IMG/VR virus record: IMGVR_UViG_3300010430_000352
Span: 1-29,532 of that record
DNA: 29,532 nt
Reading direction: 5' to 3' (one strand)
Origin: a virus
This document shows positions 1,948 to 17,782 of the stretch, in pieces (the first letter of the stretch is position 1; every line of letters begins with the position of its first letter). The notes beneath the pieces were generated by a model. That model was not told the origin of the DNA. It saw only the letters and a program-made list of their open reading frames with translations, and did no database searches. Position numbers and translations under genes: made by a program.

Positions 1948-3221
1948 AATACCGCCAAAGTTTCTTTCTCTTTCTCTTCTAACATTTTTGAAATTTTAAG
2001 ATCTTGGTGAGAGCCCTGGATCCTGTGTATAAGACATTTCTTTTCTTGCCCAATTCTATAGATTCTCTTTCTCGCTTGGCGATTCCTGCCAGGAACCCAA
2101 GATTCATCATTAAAAACAGCGTCAGCCGCTTTAGTAAGTGTAAATCCTGTAGAGAATGAGCCAATTGTCGCCACCAAATACTTGTACTTACTTTCCTGAA
2201 ATTGTACTGCCATTTCAGATCGTTTCTTTGATGGGGTTGCGCCAGATATAAAGGGGCACTCGAGCTTTGCTGCAATCGCTTCACCCGATTCGATGTGGTC
2301 GGTAAACACAATAATTGGGTGTCCCACTTCGTCATGGAGATCTGCCACGTATTTAGCCGTATAGGGAGCTTTTGCCAATGCTGATAAAGCTTTTGCGCTG
2401 GAATCGTTGGATTTGTTAGTTGAAACGAAATCGTCCCATTCTTCCTCCAAATTTCCGTCAAAACTATAATTGATAAGTACGTCTTTGATTGAAATAGGCG
2501 GAAGGTCCAGAACGTCCTCCGCAACACGCCGTAAATATCTTCCTCGTTGAATCGCCTTAAGATCTTGTACATTTCTACTACCCTTGAATTTGGTTACTGT
2601 CCTACCGTTTACTGTGAACTTTACCGGATTGCTAAAATGGTAGTTGAATTTCCACTGATTTGGAAATAATTCCATGAACGTATCCGCTCTAGGATTGTCA
2701 TATTCATAGTTTATGAGTTTAAAGAGGGAGTACCACTCAATAGTTCTATTCTCTACTGGAGTCCCTGTCATTAAGGTAAGTCTTCTAGGCATTTTCTCGT
2801 AGATATACTCGTGAAATAGGCCTCCACGAATAGAGTCTACGTTCTTTAAATAGTGGGCTTCGTCTGCCACTACCCAGTCAGCTAAATCGAACAGCTCCTC
2901 AATATGCTTGAGGTTAGAGTAAGTGGATATAATTAAAGAGGTTTCATAACAGTAGTATTCTGTGAACCTTTTAGATTTTGTTTTGAGCTTGAATTCTGTA
3001 AGTTTCTCTACTTCATTTTCCCAGTTCCCACGTAGGTAGGAGGGGACAATGACTAAGGCGGCTTGGGGACGTACATTAAGTATCGCCCCAAGTGCCTGTA
3101 GTGTTTTCCCGAGACCCATGTCGTCCCCAAGGACGGCATAGGGAGAAGATTCGAGAAAACCAATGCCCTCCGCTTGGAAGGGCTTAGGTATAATATTTGG
3201 CTTAAACCCCACGATTTTCAT
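1944..3221 (-). CDS. SNF2-family (SF2) DNA helicase/ATPase
   Basis: This is a complete SF2 ATPase of 425 aa. The Walker A motif is GDDMGLGKT (residues 32-40), motif Ia VIVPSYL (58-64), motif II ADEAH (119-123) and motif III MTGTP (151-155). The C-terminal half carries motif V/VI: ATIGSFSTGFTLTKA, then RNRQARKRIYRIGQ. DMGLGKT and the RxxRxxRIGQ ending are typical of SNF2/RapA-type translocases. Related phage proteins are thought to act on branched or stalled replication forks or in recombination, as with UvsW-like functions, and that role here is inference. The start overlaps the upstream gene by 20 nt and has no clear Shine-Dalgarno, so expression may depend on coupling. The gene is compact for the family and has no extra DNA-binding domain. 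Confidence 0.93.
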   Translation of the reverse strand: MKIVGFKPNIIPKPFQAEGIGFLESSPYAVLGDDMGLGKTLQALGAILNVRPQAALVIVPSYLRGNWENEVEKLTEFKLKTKSKRFTEYYCYETSLIISTYSNLKHIEELFDLADWVVADEAHYLKNVDSIRGGLFHEYIYEKMPRRLTLMTGTPVENRTIEWYSLFKLINYEYDNPRADTFMELFPNQWKFNYHFSNPVKFTVNGRTVTKFKGSRNVQDLKAIQRGRYLRRVAEDVLDLPPISIKDVLINYSFDGNLEEEWDDFVSTNKSNDSSAKALSALAKAPYTAKYVADLHDEVGHPIIVFTDHIESGEAIAAKLECPFISGATPSKKRSEMAVQFQESKYKYLVATIGSFSTGFTLTKAADAVFNDESWVPGRNRQARKRIYRIGQEKKCLIHRIQGSHQDLKISKMLEEKEKETLAVL

Positions 3222-9507: not shown

Positions 9508-9729
9508 CTAGTTCTCAGCAAAATACCACTGGAAAACGTCTCCAGGTTTAATGCCGAAATAGTTAGCAAAATTGAGCATAAATTCGTGACTTGGAAACAC
9601 GTCACCTTTCTCAATATATTGAATATGAGAAGCGCAATAGCCCAAACCTTTAGCAAACTCTTTTTGAGTGATATGGGTATTATTCAATCGGAAGGTTTTT
9701 ATATGTTTCCCGCCCTGAATTTTCGCCAT
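9508..9729 (-). CDS. XRE-type helix-turn-helix transcriptional regulator, 73 aa
   Basis: From the ATG at 9729 the protein is 73 aa with one HTH_3 domain: ITQKEFAKGLGYCASHIQYI gives the two DNA-contacting helices, and FMLNFANYFGIKPGDVF the last two. Proteins like this bind operator DNA as dimers, and here it would be an early regulator of the leftward genes. A longer reading frame back to a TTG (9795) would overlap the upstream gene by 59 nt and add no domain, so it was rejected. The ribosome site is weak. No C-terminal peptidase domain is present, so it is Cro-like rather than a LexA-type repressor. Confidence 0.78.
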   Translation of the reverse strand: MAKIQGGKHIKTFRLNNTHITQKEFAKGLGYCASHIQYIEKGDVFPSHEFMLNFANYFGIKPGDVFQWYFAEN

Positions 9730-9736
9730 CTTATGT

Positions 9737-9952
9737 CTAGCTATTATCACGATTAAACTCCTCTTCCATATCCCAGGCGTCCATTTGTTGTTCAAATAGA
9801 GCGTCCTGCTTTCTGCTTTCTTTTTCCAGAATCATATCGTCAACGGTGGGCGCATCGTACTCCCTTCCGTCAGATCCGAAATATCTGTTTTCTTGAATTT
9901 TCTTTAAGTTCTCTAAGCTTGTTCGCTTATTTGGAAATTTACAACCGTACAT
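9737..9952 (-). CDS. Small acidic hypothetical protein, 71 aa
   Basis: The ATG at 9952 has AAGGTAGTAG ahead of it, the same leader element found before three other small genes in this window. A GTG at 9991 would place the start inside a hairpin and is less likely. The product is charged and mostly helical (RTSLENLKKIQENRYFGSDG), acidic at the C-terminus (AWDMEEEFNRD). Function unknown. Its stop is 7 nt before the XRE regulator's ATG, so the two are probably co-translated. Confidence 0.6.
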   Translation of the reverse strand: MYGCKFPNKRTSLENLKKIQENRYFGSDGREYDAPTVDDMILEKESRKQDALFEQQMDAWDMEEEFNRDNS

Positions 9953-12163: not shown

Positions 12164-12427
12164 CTAGAGGGCGTCTATGCCTTGGAAACGGTCCTGACAC
12201 TCCTTAAAACTCTGTATTTCCGTAGGGTTAAGCAACTTGGTCAAATCGAGCTGTCCTCCTGAAATATAGTGCATTTTAAGGGCAATTAGGAGTGTTGGTG
12301 TCCTTTCCCAGTTCATGTAATGGTGGATCGAAGTCCTATCAATACCCACCTTTTTAGAAAATGTTGTCTTATTGAACTGCGGATTTTCTTCAAAGAATTC
12401 CTCTAAATTCATGGAATTTTTTGCCAT
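12164..12427 (-). CDS. YdaS/Cro-like helix-turn-helix regulator, 87 aa
   Basis: The ATG at 12427 has GGAGG 8 nt ahead (with the GGTAGTAGA element). The N-terminus holds a helix-turn-helix (NKTTFSKKVGIDRTSIHHYM) followed by NWERTPTLLIALKMHYISGG and LDLTKLL, the layout of phage YdaS/Cro-type regulators. It is a likely DNA-binding switch protein. Its stop abuts the -35 of the strong leftward promoter, and it is divergent from the HNH/TerS unit, so it is placed to control both. A 16-residue extension to an upstream start lacks a ribosome site. Confidence 0.8.
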   Translation of the reverse strand: MAKNSMNLEEFFEENPQFNKTTFSKKVGIDRTSIHHYMNWERTPTLLIALKMHYISGGQLDLTKLLNPTEIQSFKECQDRFQGIDAL

Positions 12428-12581
12428 TCTACTACCTCCCGACAAAATCGTGTCCTTAGCTAGTGCGTTAAACACTAACTATTATTTAGTAAATAAAAAC
12501 ATAACTAGTGACAAACGTCAACAAAATTGTCAGATTTTCGGTAAATTTTACATTTTTTCAATGTGCCAGTATTATAATTTC
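12428..12581. promoter_or_regulatory. Divergent intergenic region with inverted repeat and weak promoters
   Basis: TGACAA (12509-12514) and TTGTCA (12527-12532) form an inverted repeat. Rightward, TTGTCA could serve as a -35 for TACATT (12549-12554, 16-nt spacing). TATAAT also occurs at 12573-12578. Leftward, TTGACG (12521-12516) could be a -35 for the HTH gene, but its -10 is poor. The region is AT-rich and the likely site of divergent control. Confidence 0.4.
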
Positions 12582-12959
12582 ATGGCAAAAAAGAAGAAAA
12601 AACCTCCCGTTCACGGTCGAATTATTGCTTCACTTCGTATGCTTTGGTTGAAATCTGAGCTTCGAGCTGGCGCATTTAAGAAGGCAAAATACAAAAAATT
12701 AGTCGGTACTTACAAAAATGGGAATGACAAATACCTCACTTTTGTTGTGTGCAAGCTTTGTGGTTTTGAATCCAGGTTAGAAAAGGACTTTCAAGCGGAT
12801 CATATTGAGGAAGTTGGGGGTTATCAAGGTAGTTGGGACGTGTTCATAGACAGGCTGTTATTTTGCTCCCCAGACAATATTCAGGTATTATGTAAAAAAT
12901 GCCACCATGAAAAAACCCAGAGGGTTAAATGTCAAAAAACCGCACTAAAGATATTATGA
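12582..12959 (+). CDS. HNH endonuclease
   Basis: From the ATG at 12582 (125 aa) the motifs are CKLC (Cys57, Cys60), ADHIEE (Asp73-His74), DNIQVLC (Asn99) and CKKCHHEKT (Cys104, Cys107, His108). This is a complete HNH nuclease with a Cys4 zinc site. The N-terminus is strongly basic (AKKKKKPPVHGR), suitable for DNA binding. HNH proteins next to terminase genes are known to nick DNA during packaging in several phages. The 31-nt overlap with the small terminase gene supports a packaging role, though a free-standing homing nuclease is possible. No Shine-Dalgarno precedes this ATG or the in-frame one at 12561, so the exact start is uncertain. Confidence 0.85.
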   Translation: MAKKKKKPPVHGRIIASLRMLWLKSELRAGAFKKAKYKKLVGTYKNGNDKYLTFVVCKLCGFESRLEKDFQADHIEEVGGYQGSWDVFIDRLLFCSPDNIQVLCKKCHHEKTQRVKCQKTALKIL

Positions 12960-13480
12960 AAGACCCTGAGTACCAACTCGCTAGAGAATCTGAGAAAACT
13001 CTCTCAAAGCTTGGGCATTATAGGAAATATCACGAAGACTTTGCTTTGCAATTGGTTGAATGGATGGCCGAGGGGCGTACTTTCACCACATTTGGGACCC
13101 AAGCTAAGGTTTGCCCCATGACTCTAGTTAAGTGGTCCAAGGAACATCCCGAATTTGAGAAAGCTAGGGAAATTGGGAAAATGTATCAACTAGCTAAATG
13201 GGAAGAATTAGCTCTTTTATCCGCTTCTGGTGAATCTCCTAAATCTAATCCAGCTTCATTAATCTTTATGCTTAAGAACCTATTTCCTATGAACTATCAG
13301 GATAGAAGAGATACAGGTCAAAATAACGTTGGTCCTGCCACTATTATTATTGATACGGGCGTCGATCGTGGAAAACTACCAGATAAAGCTGAGGTAGTTG
13401 AAGTCATAAAAAAGGAGCAGGAAAAACCTGCCCCTGTTTTAATAGATAATAATGGTTCTAGTGGTTTAGACGGTCTTTAG
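12929..13480 (+). CDS. terS: Terminase small subunit
   Basis: 183 aa. Residues about 45-85 form an HTH DNA-binding region (FTTFGTQAKVCPMTLVKWSK), followed by the oligomerisation helices (EFEKAREIGKMYQLAKWEEL). The NPASLIFMLKNLFPMNYQDR stretch is typical of phage small terminases that recognise the packaging site and feed DNA to the large subunit. The C-terminal tail is poorly conserved and flexible. It overlaps the HNH gene by 31 nt. Unusually, its large-subunit partner is about 2.7 kb away, beyond a cassette on the opposite strand. Its stop overlaps the stop of the leftward 58-aa gene. Confidence 0.78.
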   Translation: MSKNRTKDIMKDPEYQLARESEKTLSKLGHYRKYHEDFALQLVEWMAEGRTFTTFGTQAKVCPMTLVKWSKEHPEFEKAREIGKMYQLAKWEELALLSASGESPKSNPASLIFMLKNLFPMNYQDRRDTGQNNVGPATIIIDTGVDRGKLPDKAEVVEVIKKEQEKPAPVLIDNNGSSGLDGL

Positions 13481-13753: not shown

Positions 13754-14167
13754 CTAGAATATATCTTCTGCCCTATGTGATTTCTCAGCATAAGGTCTAA
13801 TTAGTTCTTGAATATTTTTGGTTTCCTCGTCGTCACAATTCATTGAGCAAATGAAGGCACAAAGCATCTTTGGCAGCTTATCGTCAACCGTCCAGTTCTT
13901 ACCACCACACCACAAAGGAAAGCAGGAGAAGTCTAGGTCAGTACCCCGAAGATCTGCATCTTGAAGGTCACAATTCTGAAGCTTTGCATATTGAAGGTCA
14001 CAATTTTGAAGGTCACAATTTTGAAGGTTACAACCCTGAAGGTCGGCATCTCGGAGGTCACAACCCCGGAGGTCACAACCCCGGAGGTCTGCACGTTCAC
14101 CGCCCTCTTCGCCTTCGAACCATAACTTATGTTTTCTTAAAATCTCATTTAGTTCTTCTTGTTTCAT
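13754..14167 (-). CDS. Pentapeptide-repeat protein, 137 aa
   Basis: Residues 26 to about 78 are ten consecutive A/C-D/N-L-x-x pentapeptides plus a partial one (ADLRG, CDLRG, CDLRD, ADLQG and similar), which fold into a right-handed quadrilateral beta-helix. Seven of the ten first positions are Cys. The C-terminal domain (FPLWCGGKNWTVDDKLPKM and following) resembles the capping part seen in phage pentapeptide proteins. The related Qnr/MfpA class mimics DNA and protects gyrase, and phage homologues might counter host or defence enzymes, but that is inference. GGAG lies 9 nt before the ATG. Part of the leftward cassette between the terminase genes. Confidence 0.88.
   Translation of the reverse strand: MKQEELNEILRKHKLWFEGEEGGERADLRGCDLRGCDLRDADLQGCNLQNCDLQNCDLQYAKLQNCDLQDADLRGTDLDFSCFPLWCGGKNWTVDDKLPKMLCAFICSMNCDDEETKNIQELIRPYAEKSHRAEDIF
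13943..14092 (-). repeat. 15-bp tandem repeats encoding the pentapeptides
   Basis: Ten degenerate 15-bp units (type AACCTTCAGGGTTGT) lie in frame within the pentapeptide gene. Several units (CTCCGGGGTTGTGAC and CTTCAAAATTGTGAC) are nearly identical to each other, so copy number may change by slippage or recombination. Confidence 0.85.
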
Positions 14168-14836: not shown

Positions 14837-15082
14837 TTACCTCATTACCTGTGAAATATACTCACCTTGGAATAGTTCAGCGCCAGAAAGAATAGAGTCT
14901 ACGTTCATCTTAACTAGACCTCTATCACCTCTAGAACCCTTAACCTTTACGGTTAACTCGTGACTTGGGTTAATCTCATAGATTGACCTTACAAGCTCTT
15001 TAGAGATAATCCCCAGCTCTTTAACCATTCCATCGTTCTGGATTAATTGACTTACTAATAACTCTTTTTGTGTTTTATTCAT
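14837..15082 (-). CDS. Hypothetical phage protein, 81 aa
   Basis: First gene of the leftward cassette after the candidate promoter at 15129-15157. The N-terminus is helical (KTQKELLVSQLIQNDGMVKEL), followed by a basic/Gly stretch (VKVKGSRGDRGLVKM) and an acidic/aromatic end. GAAGGTAGTAGATC precedes the ATG. No family is recognised. Confidence 0.6.
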   Translation of the reverse strand: MNKTQKELLVSQLIQNDGMVKELGIISKELVRSIYEINPSHELTVKVKGSRGDRGLVKMNVDSILSGAELFQGEYISQVMR

Positions 15083-15128
15083 GATCTACTACCTTCGTGA
15101 ATTGGCTTTAATGCCATTGCTTGAATAT

Positions 15129-15157
15129 ACATTAGCGCGGTTTTTATGTGTTGACAA
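15129..15157 (-). promoter_or_regulatory. Candidate promoter for the leftward accessory cassette
   Basis: On the - strand TTGTCA and TAATGT are spaced by 17 nt, with the start expected near 15122, about 40 nt before the ATG at 15082. The -10 keeps only the three most important bases, so the strength is moderate at best. Confidence 0.45.
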
Positions 15158-15257
15158 GTGTAGACTGTAAAAAATACTCACTCCCTTTAGTAAAAAGAGG
15201 GGTATTGAATACTTTAAAAAGGACCGGACATTCGTGCTTTTATTTATCCACTATAAA

Positions 15258-15286
15258 TTGAAGCAGCGCCGAATCACCTTTATCAT
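15258..15286 (+). promoter_or_regulatory. Candidate rightward promoter before the hairpin region
   Basis: TTGAAG and TATCAT are spaced by 17 nt (nine of twelve consensus bases). A transcript from here would begin near 15293 and include the hairpin array and the repeats before the late genes. Confidence 0.5.
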
Positions 15287-15306
15287 AAGCAATATTTATG
15301 ACCTTA

Positions 15307-15599
15307 GTACTAAGCCTGAGCCTAGTACACTAGGGATAGTGTGCCTTGGAGTACTAGAACACTAGAGGGAAGTGGGCTGCTCTGCGTGACAAGTGTCATT
15401 AGCATAGTGTGTGTTGTGCTGTGCCCTCTCCTTTATATAGGTTATGTTATGAGTGAATACGAATAACATAATACAAGTACCTTTGACCGAGCTACGAAGT
15501 AATGAGTAGCGAGATATAGGTGCGAGTGAAACGAGTACCGGAGTAAGGTACCTTATCTGAACTGAAGGACGAGGGGGTACCCCCAAGAACGGAAGTTCT
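15307..15599 (+). ncRNA. Hairpin-rich region, candidate structured RNA or DNA site
   Basis: Perfect inverted repeats, in order: GTACTA/TAGTAC (15307-15328); ACACTA-GGGA-TAGTGT (15327-15342) nested within CTAGTAC/GTACTAG (15322-15357); TGACA/TGTCA (15387-15398); TTATGTTAT/ATAACATAA (15442-15471); GCTAC/GTAGC (15491-15510); GTACC/GGTAC (15535-15551); GGGGGTACCCCC (15573-15584); and AGAAC-GGAA-GTTCT (15586-15599), which has a GNRA tetraloop. Such density is unusual and has no coding explanation. It may be a structured leader RNA, a packaging or origin site, or a remnant of a mobile element. No known RNA family is recognised. Confidence 0.4.
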
Positions 15600-15615
15600 G
15601 AGAAGGAGGGAGCCG

Positions 15616-15741
15616 TCACCTCACACCCAATTTTTATAAAACATTCATAAACAAATATTATATATATATAATTTCTAGATCACCTCACACCCAATTTTTA
15701 TAAAACATTCGTAAACAAATATTATTTTATATTTCTGACGA
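15616..15741. repeat. Two tandem 64-bp AT-rich repeats
   Basis: Copy one starts at 15616 and copy two at 15680; the first 46 bases differ at only one position. Each begins TCACCTCACACCCAATTTTT, contains the palindrome TTTTATAAAA and ends in an AT-rich tract. TTTATA and TATTAT occur 17 nt apart in both copies, so each copy may be a promoter (15633-15661 and 15697-15725). They could also be iterons of an origin or packaging site. Confidence 0.8.
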
Positions 15742-15752
15742 AATCGCACCTG

Positions 15753-15781
15753 TTGCAACGGAGTAATTTTGAGTTTATTCT
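15753..15781 (+). promoter_or_regulatory. Candidate late rightward promoter
   Basis: TTGCAA and TATTCT are separated by 17 nt; the start would be near 15788, 33 nt before the ATG of the first late gene. It agrees moderately with the sigma70 consensus. Confidence 0.5.
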
Positions 15782-15820
15782 ATTGTTTATTATTACCAAC
15801 CAATTCAAAAGGATTACCTA

Positions 15821-16189
15821 ATGAGAGCTAGAATTTTAAATCCAGACGGAACTTTTTCTTATGCTGACGTTAAAAAATCAGCACCTAAAGCCTCGACCGA
15901 AAGTAAACCTCTTACTAAAAGAGAGGAAAAGGACGATAAGGAAAAGCCTGTTACTGAAAGACCTGTAATGAAGCTAAACCTTAAGGAACTTAAGGAACTT
16001 GCTGTTACTGAAGGTGTAGATTTTGCTAAGAACGTCACTAAGAAAAGACTTCTTGAGCAAATCATTCAGAGACGCCAAGGACAAAAATCTGAAGCCGTTG
16101 CGAAACTTAACAGTGAAGTTAAGGGTGAAGAGACTTCTGTAATCAAGGCGCAGAAGCAAGATGAGAAAATGGCTGAGATCGGTCTTTAA
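15821..16189 (+). CDS. SAP/HeH-like motif protein preceding TerL, 122 aa
   Basis: The middle of the protein (about residues 50-83: MKLNLKELKELAVTEGVDFA, then TKKRLLEQIIQ) matches the helix-extension-helix plan of SAP/HeH motifs, which bind DNA. The remainder is charged and low in complexity. AAGG lies 8 nt before the ATG. It is the first gene of the late operon and is in the same reading frame as TerL, separated from it by one TAA. A DNA-packaging or terminase-accessory role is plausible but not shown. Confidence 0.7.
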   Translation: MRARILNPDGTFSYADVKKSAPKASTESKPLTKREEKDDKEKPVTERPVMKLNLKELKELAVTEGVDFAKNVTKKRLLEQIIQRRQGQKSEAVAKLNSEVKGEETSVIKAQKQDEKMAEIGL

Positions 16190-17782
16190 TTGAGCAATTC
16201 ATCAGAATCTATGACGGGTGTAAAACGTATTACTACGGGTTACACCCCTCGTAAATTACAGAAGGTAGTCCACAAGTGCTTAAAGAGATTTAATGTACTT
16301 GTCTGCCATCGGCGATTCGGTAAGACAGTTCTTTGTATTAATGAGCTGATTGACCGAGCTTTATCTAATCCCTTAAGGAATCCTCAATATGTCTATTTGG
16401 CTCCGACCTATAAGCAAGCTAAAAAAATCGCTTGGCAATACATTGTTGATTACACGAGGAACATACCAGGCGTTAAGGTTAATAAGTCAGAACTTACGGT
16501 CTATATTAAAAGAGACTGGTTCATTGATCCCGAGAACGGTGAGAATGACCCCGATACTATCTCCATTATGCTTGCCGGTAGTGACGATCCTGATTCCTAT
16601 CGTGGTATGTATTTTGATGGTGGGATTATTGACGAGTATGCTCAATGTGATCCTAGCATTTGGGGCCAAATTCTTCGTCCTGCTTTGTCGGATAGAGGGA
16701 AAATTGCCAAAGATCTAGGACTTAAGTGGGATTTGAAACAACAGCCTCTTGATCCCTGGATTATTTTCATTGGTACGCCTAAGGGCAAGAACCACTTTTG
16801 GAAAAGATTTGTTTCGGCTCAGGAAATGGAAGCCTGGGCAGAGTCCTATGAGGATTCTAACGACGTTGATGAAGTTAGGGTCAAAATGGGGGAATGGGAA
16901 GTAGCTAAGGGGATCACTCCTGAGACTACTGACGTTGAATTAAAGGAAATACTCCGCAAATCCACCTCAGATGAGGCGGAAAGATATAATATGTGGAGGA
17001 AATATAAGGCGAATTCCAACTGGTTCACCTCAATTTATAAGGCGAGTGAAACTGGGATTGTTTCCCAGGAAGAACTTGATGAAATGAGAGCGGACCTTAC
17101 CGACGAGGAAGTGGAGCAAGAGCTTGAGTGTTCTTTCACCGCTGCCATTCTAGGTAGTTATTTCGGACATTTGCTAAATCAAGCGGAGAGAGAGGAGAGA
17201 ATCGGGGTAGTTCCCTATGATCCTAGATATCCGGTTGAAACTTTCTGGGACATCGGTGTTGGTGACAAATGTACTATTTGGTTCCGCCAGCGTGTGGGCG
17301 CAATGTACCACTATATCGACTATTATGAGAATAATGGGGAAGGTGTAGAGCATTATGCCAAGGTGATTAAGGATAAAGGGTATATATACGGTCGTCATAT
17401 ATGGCCGCACGATGGGAAGGTAAAAGAGTTCGGATCTGGGCAAACCAGACAGGAAACTGCCCGAAAATTGGGACTTATCGTAGAAATTCAGCCAAGACAA
17501 GCGGTTGATGATAGAATAAGTGCTAGTCGTGCCCGTATCAGAATTTCCCGGTTCGATAAAGAAAAATGTGCAAGGGGTCTAGATTGCCTGTATGATTATC
17601 AGAAGGAATGGGACGAAAAGACTATGATGTTCAAGGAAAAACCTAAACATAACTGGGCTTCTCACGGTTCCGACTCCTTTGGATACTCTGCGCTTGACGA
17701 CAGGGTTTCTACTAGGGATGATGATTGGGTAAACAATAAGCAAGTCCAAGCCGACGACGACTGGGACGAATTGGGGTATTAG
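16190..17782 (+). CDS. terL: Terminase large subunit (DNA-packaging ATPase/nuclease)
   Basis: 530 aa from a TTG (16190), or 523 aa from the ATG at 16211. The ATPase domain has Walker A-like CHRRFGKT (39-46), Walker B GGIIDEY (144-150) with the catalytic Glu149, and coupling motif IIFIGTPKG (191-199). The C-terminal RNase H-like nuclease begins at FWDIGVGD (Asp354), with the last acidic cluster around HGSDSFGYSA. A charged 45-residue stretch (about 222-268) lies between the ATPase and the SIYKASETG segment. The protein translocates and cuts concatemeric DNA into the procapsid through the portal encoded next. Neither start has a clear Shine-Dalgarno, so initiation may depend on termination of the gene just before it. 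Confidence 0.95.
   Translation: MSNSSESMTGVKRITTGYTPRKLQKVVHKCLKRFNVLVCHRRFGKTVLCINELIDRALSNPLRNPQYVYLAPTYKQAKKIAWQYIVDYTRNIPGVKVNKSELTVYIKRDWFIDPENGENDPDTISIMLAGSDDPDSYRGMYFDGGIIDEYAQCDPSIWGQILRPALSDRGKIAKDLGLKWDLKQQPLDPWIIFIGTPKGKNHFWKRFVSAQEMEAWAESYEDSNDVDEVRVKMGEWEVAKGITPETTDVELKEILRKSTSDEAERYNMWRKYKANSNWFTSIYKASETGIVSQEELDEMRADLTDEEVEQELECSFTAAILGSYFGHLLNQAEREERIGVVPYDPRYPVETFWDIGVGDKCTIWFRQRVGAMYHYIDYYENNGEGVEHYAKVIKDKGYIYGRHIWPHDGKVKEFGSGQTRQETARKLGLIVEIQPRQAVDDRISASRARIRISRFDKEKCARGLDCLYDYQKEWDEKTMMFKEKPKHNWASHGSDSFGYSALDDRVSTRDDDWVNNKQVQADDDWDELGY

Follow-up and report, generated by a model that had tools for sequence, protein, structure and literature searches.

A hairpin-rich stretch upstream of terL in a 29.5-kb virus record probably contains a phage cos region

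What is the role of the hairpin-rich stretch (15293–15615) that lies upstream of the terminase gene in this virus record? The window, meaning the whole 29.5-kb stretch of DNA analysed here, is a virus record whose replication genes (DNA polymerase, primase) form a leftward arm and whose rightward late arm includes terL, a head–tail adaptor and the major head protein. The initial annotation had listed several RNA options for the stretch alongside a DNA site used by terminase in packaging. Comparison of sequences across phages leads us to propose that the stretch probably contains the phage cos (DNA-packaging) region.

The stretch sits in an intergenic region (15083–15820) bounded by a leftward gene (14837–15082) and a rightward 122-aa ORF (15821–16189, + strand), after which terL begins. 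The 122-aa ORF has a weak best match to phrog_3281 (E=4.6e-5, annotated endonuclease VII), and a search for its relatives found none. The terL gene, encoding the terminase large subunit (16190–17782, + strand), matches phrog_2 (E=3e-34), a family that covers several packaging types, and phrog_2472 (E=1.8e-46). The start of terL (16200–16349, + strand) holds the strongest local RNA fold in the scanned region (z about −6), stronger than that of the hairpin array. Further left are an HNH endonuclease ORF (12372–12959, + strand; phrog_1985, E=2.4e-12; PF01844, E=3.5e-5) and a terS-like small terminase ORF (12929–13480, + strand; phrog_309, E=1.1e-12; no Pfam match). A pentapeptide-repeat-like protein (LRGCDLRGCDLRDADLQGCNLQ...) is encoded by 15-bp DNA repeats at 13754–14167 (− strand), and its PHROG matches are of unknown function.

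All repeats named in the initial annotation were located in the sequence. They include a 9-bp perfect stem, TTATGTTAT/ATAACATAA (15442–15450/15463–15471), a nested repeat, CTAGTACACTAGGG/CCTTGGAGTACTAG (15322–15335/15344–15357), AGAGGG at 15364 with its CCCTCT partner at 15424, the perfect 12-bp palindrome GGGGGTACCCCC (15573–15584) and, directly right of the palindrome, a short GNRA-loop hairpin, AGAAC-GGAA-GTTCT (15586–15599). The claim of 'eight or more' perfect inverted repeats depends on the definition, as we counted 6 with perfect arms of ≥6 nt and loops of 3–30 nt, but the excess over shuffled sequence is real: 500 dinucleotide shuffles gave 1.6 ± 1.2, and 3 of the 500 reached 6. The same number occurs in 3 of the 73 other 323-nt segments of the contig.

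Some hairpins are mutually exclusive, for example 15307–15328 and 15322–15357, as would be expected if the + strand were transcribed into a structured RNA, either non-coding or a late 5′ leader, that controls the late operon by antitermination or other regulation. The + strand is G-rich at this stretch, and its RNA fold departs from that of shuffles by z = −3.0 to −3.25, compared with about −2 for the − strand. This score, however, ranks only fourth of 74 segments. Three of the 73 others fold better relative to shuffles, including those starting at 16001 and 16801, both in the coding late region. Removal of the part containing the palindrome reduces z to −1.9, and the conserved part of the stretch is a symmetric DNA palindrome; folded as single-stranded DNA, the stretch gives a z of −1.4. 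Rfam returned no family at gathering thresholds, and relaxed thresholds gave weak, chance-level matches only. In L176, a contig whose TerL is 57% identical to that of the window, the equivalent region has an unexceptional z of −0.9. The search for alignable relatives to assess covariation yielded none, with blastn against phages giving chance matches only; L002 (TerL 58% identical to that of the window) begins inside the element, L175 begins downstream of it, and L176 keeps the layout without alignable sequence. The hairpin repeats are real, yet they do not single out an RNA. With no Rfam match and a fold score exceeded elsewhere in the contig, the RNA options proposed initially (an unknown family, a packaging RNA, a late-leader regulator) gain no support, and we regard a leader or non-coding RNA as quite unlikely.

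The stretch also contains seven GTAC tetramers in 323 bp (0.83 expected), on which the initial annotation was silent; other 323-bp segments of the contig have at most 3 each. Six of them lie in the hairpin-rich array at 15303–15572 (15307, 15325, 15351, 15477, 15535 and 15548), and the seventh forms the core of the palindrome. The array may serve protein binding or act as a leader RNA. To the right of the palindrome are two 46-bp direct repeats (15616–15661 and 15680–15725, + strand), 98% identical, 64 bp apart and present in no further copies in the window. An operator/promoter region between divergent operons would account for these elements if a phage repressor or activator recognizes the GTAC dyads and repeats, with late promoters located inside the 46-bp repeats. 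The flanking genes are indeed divergent, the GTAC cluster is found nowhere else in the contig, sigma-70-like matches lie inside the 46-bp repeats, and the window has a repressor-like ORF at 9508–9795. Yet promoter matches are near chance level in this region (7 against 4.8 expected), and the candidate promoter at 15258–15286 in the initial annotation proved to be an ordinary consensus match. Nor would such a region explain why unrelated phages have the palindrome near their genome ends and upstream of TerL. GTAC words showed no enrichment around the palindrome in other phages. As the explanation of the stretch, an operator/promoter region is unlikely, but this role is compatible with a cos region and the two may well coexist.

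The palindrome is the single G4+N0–6C4+ string in the whole 29.5-kb window, starting at 15573 and lying 605 bp upstream of the terL start. The HNH and terS ORFs are to its left and terL to its right, the junction position expected of cos sites, with HNH and terS about 2 kb from the palindrome and not adjacent to it.

To examine its distribution, we scanned IMG/VR with GGGGGGTACCCCCC (G6TAC6) and restricted the test to the palindrome alone, because loci picked via the AAGGAGG seed are biased. The scan gave at least 118 loci, of which 118 were analysed. TerL was sought in 100 of the listed records and found in 42; of these, 30 had the palindrome ≤4.7 kb upstream of TerL, 4 had it ≤3.1 kb downstream and the remaining 8 had it in other places. 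After removal of duplicates, 23 of 35 palindromes in the listed records were ≤3.1 kb upstream of TerL, compared with 6.7 for random placement (0 of 200,000 trials reached 23). The upstream sites among those listed represent roughly two dozen sequence groups, and further listed records with a TerL of the PF20441 family had the palindrome upstream in 8 of 9. For comparison, across 80 TerL-selected loci GGGTACCC was upstream in 3 and downstream in 0, other G/C palindromes were scarce or of mixed placement, and GGTACC alone was upstream in 12 and downstream in 6 (p=0.005 before multiple testing, unexceptional among palindromes). On the side of the palindrome that faces terL, TATATA was counted 14 times where background predicts about 1.8; these copies came from 7 of 34 loci. 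In the window it lies some 75 bp right of the palindrome.

The palindromes also crowd towards contig ends. Among the 118 listed loci, 7 were ≤50 bp from an end (0.95 expected), 13 were ≤100 bp (1.9) and 19 were ≤200 bp (3.8), counts that include some near-copy loci; contig ends occur on both sides of the palindrome. Contig ends can also arise where assemblies break at G/C hairpins, which tempers this clustering as support for a cos region. In an alternative reading, the clustering is such an artefact and the stretch itself a replication origin or terminator. Origins carry palindromes and direct repeats, and the sign of the GC skew flips near the hairpin-rich stretch. The skew change also tracks gene orientation, however, and assembly breaks cannot produce placement upstream of TerL or near deposited genome ends. 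The absence of a T-run 3′ of the window palindrome led us to reject a terminator reading. An origin or terminator with artefactual contig ends is, in our assessment, highly improbable.

L002 starts 32 bp ahead of a copy of GGGGGTACCCCC, which is followed by AAGGAGG. Patterns built from GGGGGTACCCCC and AAGGAGG found L016, L017, L018 and L024, which, as motif-selected loci, are leads and not a test; the palindrome is upstream of terminase genes in all four. The TerL proteins of L016 and L017 are 48–54% identical to each other and belong to a TerL group other than that of the window. In L002, L016 and L017, the contig start is ≤33 bp from the palindrome, and the 44.4-kb contig L017 has a G-rich tail at its end (...GGGCAGGGGGAGGGG). 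L278 (41.5 kb) encodes a TerL sharing about 60% identity with the TerL of Gordonia phages, Posh among them. At one of its contig ends, an HNH gene (phrog_333, E=5.5e-21) extends to the palindrome; 143 bp from the other end is an ORF in the terS position, and ORFs in the places of terL and portal come next. In L356, the palindrome is at 26–39, a PF05119 terS at 81 and terL at 550, and L153 carries GGGGTACCCC 33 bp from the contig end, beside a PF05119 terS. In cohesive-end phages of Paenibacillus larvae, terS begins 50 bp from base 1 (PMC6070908). L176 has the layout of the window and lacks the palindrome; its three tandem repeats (2923–3050), with a GGTTTAACGC...TATAAAAC core, precede a Dam-like methyltransferase gene (PF05869) and occupy the place of the 46-bp repeats of the window, the TATAAAAC core being similar. 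A search for repeats common to both ends of long contigs found none, apart from the tandem array of L020. Used alone as a seed, TATATAAGGAGGTAG matched ribosome-binding sites, and L019–L023 and most other AAGGAGG matches look like chance.

Further features were seen in these and other contigs. In L156 (1–2500), GGGGTACCCC comes after TTTTTTCGTGCGGGAGTTTCTGGGGGA, with a flank nearly that beside terS in L153, and beyond the site are two ORFs of unknown function and a capsid gene (PF05065); L156 is possibly a capsid-encoding satellite or a related phage with the same cos-like site. L273, L279 and L283 are related 14–16-kb contigs with the palindrome near one end, and L273 and L283 have a TerL match at the opposite end; all three are perhaps small complete linear genomes. 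One TAG interrupts the TerL frame of L002 (570–2132), near a stretch missing relative to the window TerL. Upstream of a related TerL, L003 has four GGTACCC/GGGTACC words in 250 bp (1012–1263), none of which is the G4TAC4 palindrome.

Lambda cos (cosQ–cosN–cosB) combines a two-fold symmetric cut site with adjacent repeated terminase-binding sites and has 5′ overhangs; its likeness to the window is by analogy only, and the lambda sequence differs. For closer counterparts, we read the right ends of ten isolates' genomes as deposited. Gordonia phage Nibbles is reported to have a 10-base 3′ overhang and OlgasClover a 9-base 3′ overhang (PMC11008117). In Nibbles (OR253918), GGGGGGTACCCC, which has a G4TAC4 core, lies 44 bp inside the right terminus, on the side where the HNH gene is located; OlgasClover has a longer-looped form, GGGGTA...TACCCC, 40 bp from its right end. 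Nibbles differs from the window in host lineage and flanks, and in the window HNH and terS are about 2 kb off and the cut is predicted. G-run/C-run dyads also lie 46 bp from the deposited right end in Posh and 45 bp from it in Angelique, BritBrat (all Gordonia) and ThetaBob (Mycobacterium), with a spacer of ACCA or CAA instead of TA, and so are not the same palindrome; the genomes of Posh, Angelique and BritBrat end with an HNH gene. In TPA4, a dyad whose spacer is likewise not TA lies 23 bp from that end as deposited. These genomes provide less independent support than their number suggests, because Posh, Angelique and BritBrat are closely related to one another and their ends, like those of ThetaBob and TPA4, were taken as deposited. 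HK97 and Pseudomonas phage D3 have an HNH gene near the right end and a G-run about 45–55 bp from it, but the C-run partner is absent and hence there is no palindrome; JorRay (11-base overhang) has neither run at its right end. A feature common to phages with known or deposited ends was found as the Nibbles core and five other dyads, and is absent in HK97, D3 and JorRay. Among cohesive-end phages, the G-run/C-run dyad is one variant and does not mark them all. Recurrence of the palindrome upstream of terminase genes and near deposited cohesive-end genome ends supports a DNA site for terminase, a proposal of the initial annotation that gained support where its RNA options did not.

In the proposed cos region, terminase would recognize its site within DNA concatemers and cut the two strands at staggered positions, a few dozen bp beyond the right side of the G5-TA-C5 palindrome. 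From the dyad-to-end distance in other phages, the cut is predicted at 15600–15620, an interval that includes AAGGAGG (15603–15609). Carrying over the 44–46-bp spacing of Nibbles, Posh, Angelique, BritBrat and ThetaBob places the predicted right end at ~15617–15619, adjoining AAGGAGGGAGCC, where the 46-bp direct repeats begin. HNH, terS and the hairpin/GTAC array would then belong to the right virion end, which would terminate shortly beyond the palindrome. The left virion end would open with the two 46-bp repeats, which may be small-terminase sites or promoters, followed by terL and the late operon. The contig continues through the palindrome, and no genome ends are visible at the proposed cos.

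A broader proposal, which we put forward tentatively and at somewhat less than even confidence, is that G4+TAC4+ is a recurrent, unremarked cos element across unrelated terminase lineages that could make genome ends predictable from sequence, and that the packaging protein acting on it here also binds the array of GTAC-centred dyads ahead of it. Full-text literature searches, whose reach excludes most subscription papers, found no description of the motif. Cohesive-end sites have so far been known mostly phage by phage. If the proposal is true, a short palindrome would allow genome ends and packaging type to be predicted in uncultured phages, and would raise the question of why different terminases use one DNA feature.
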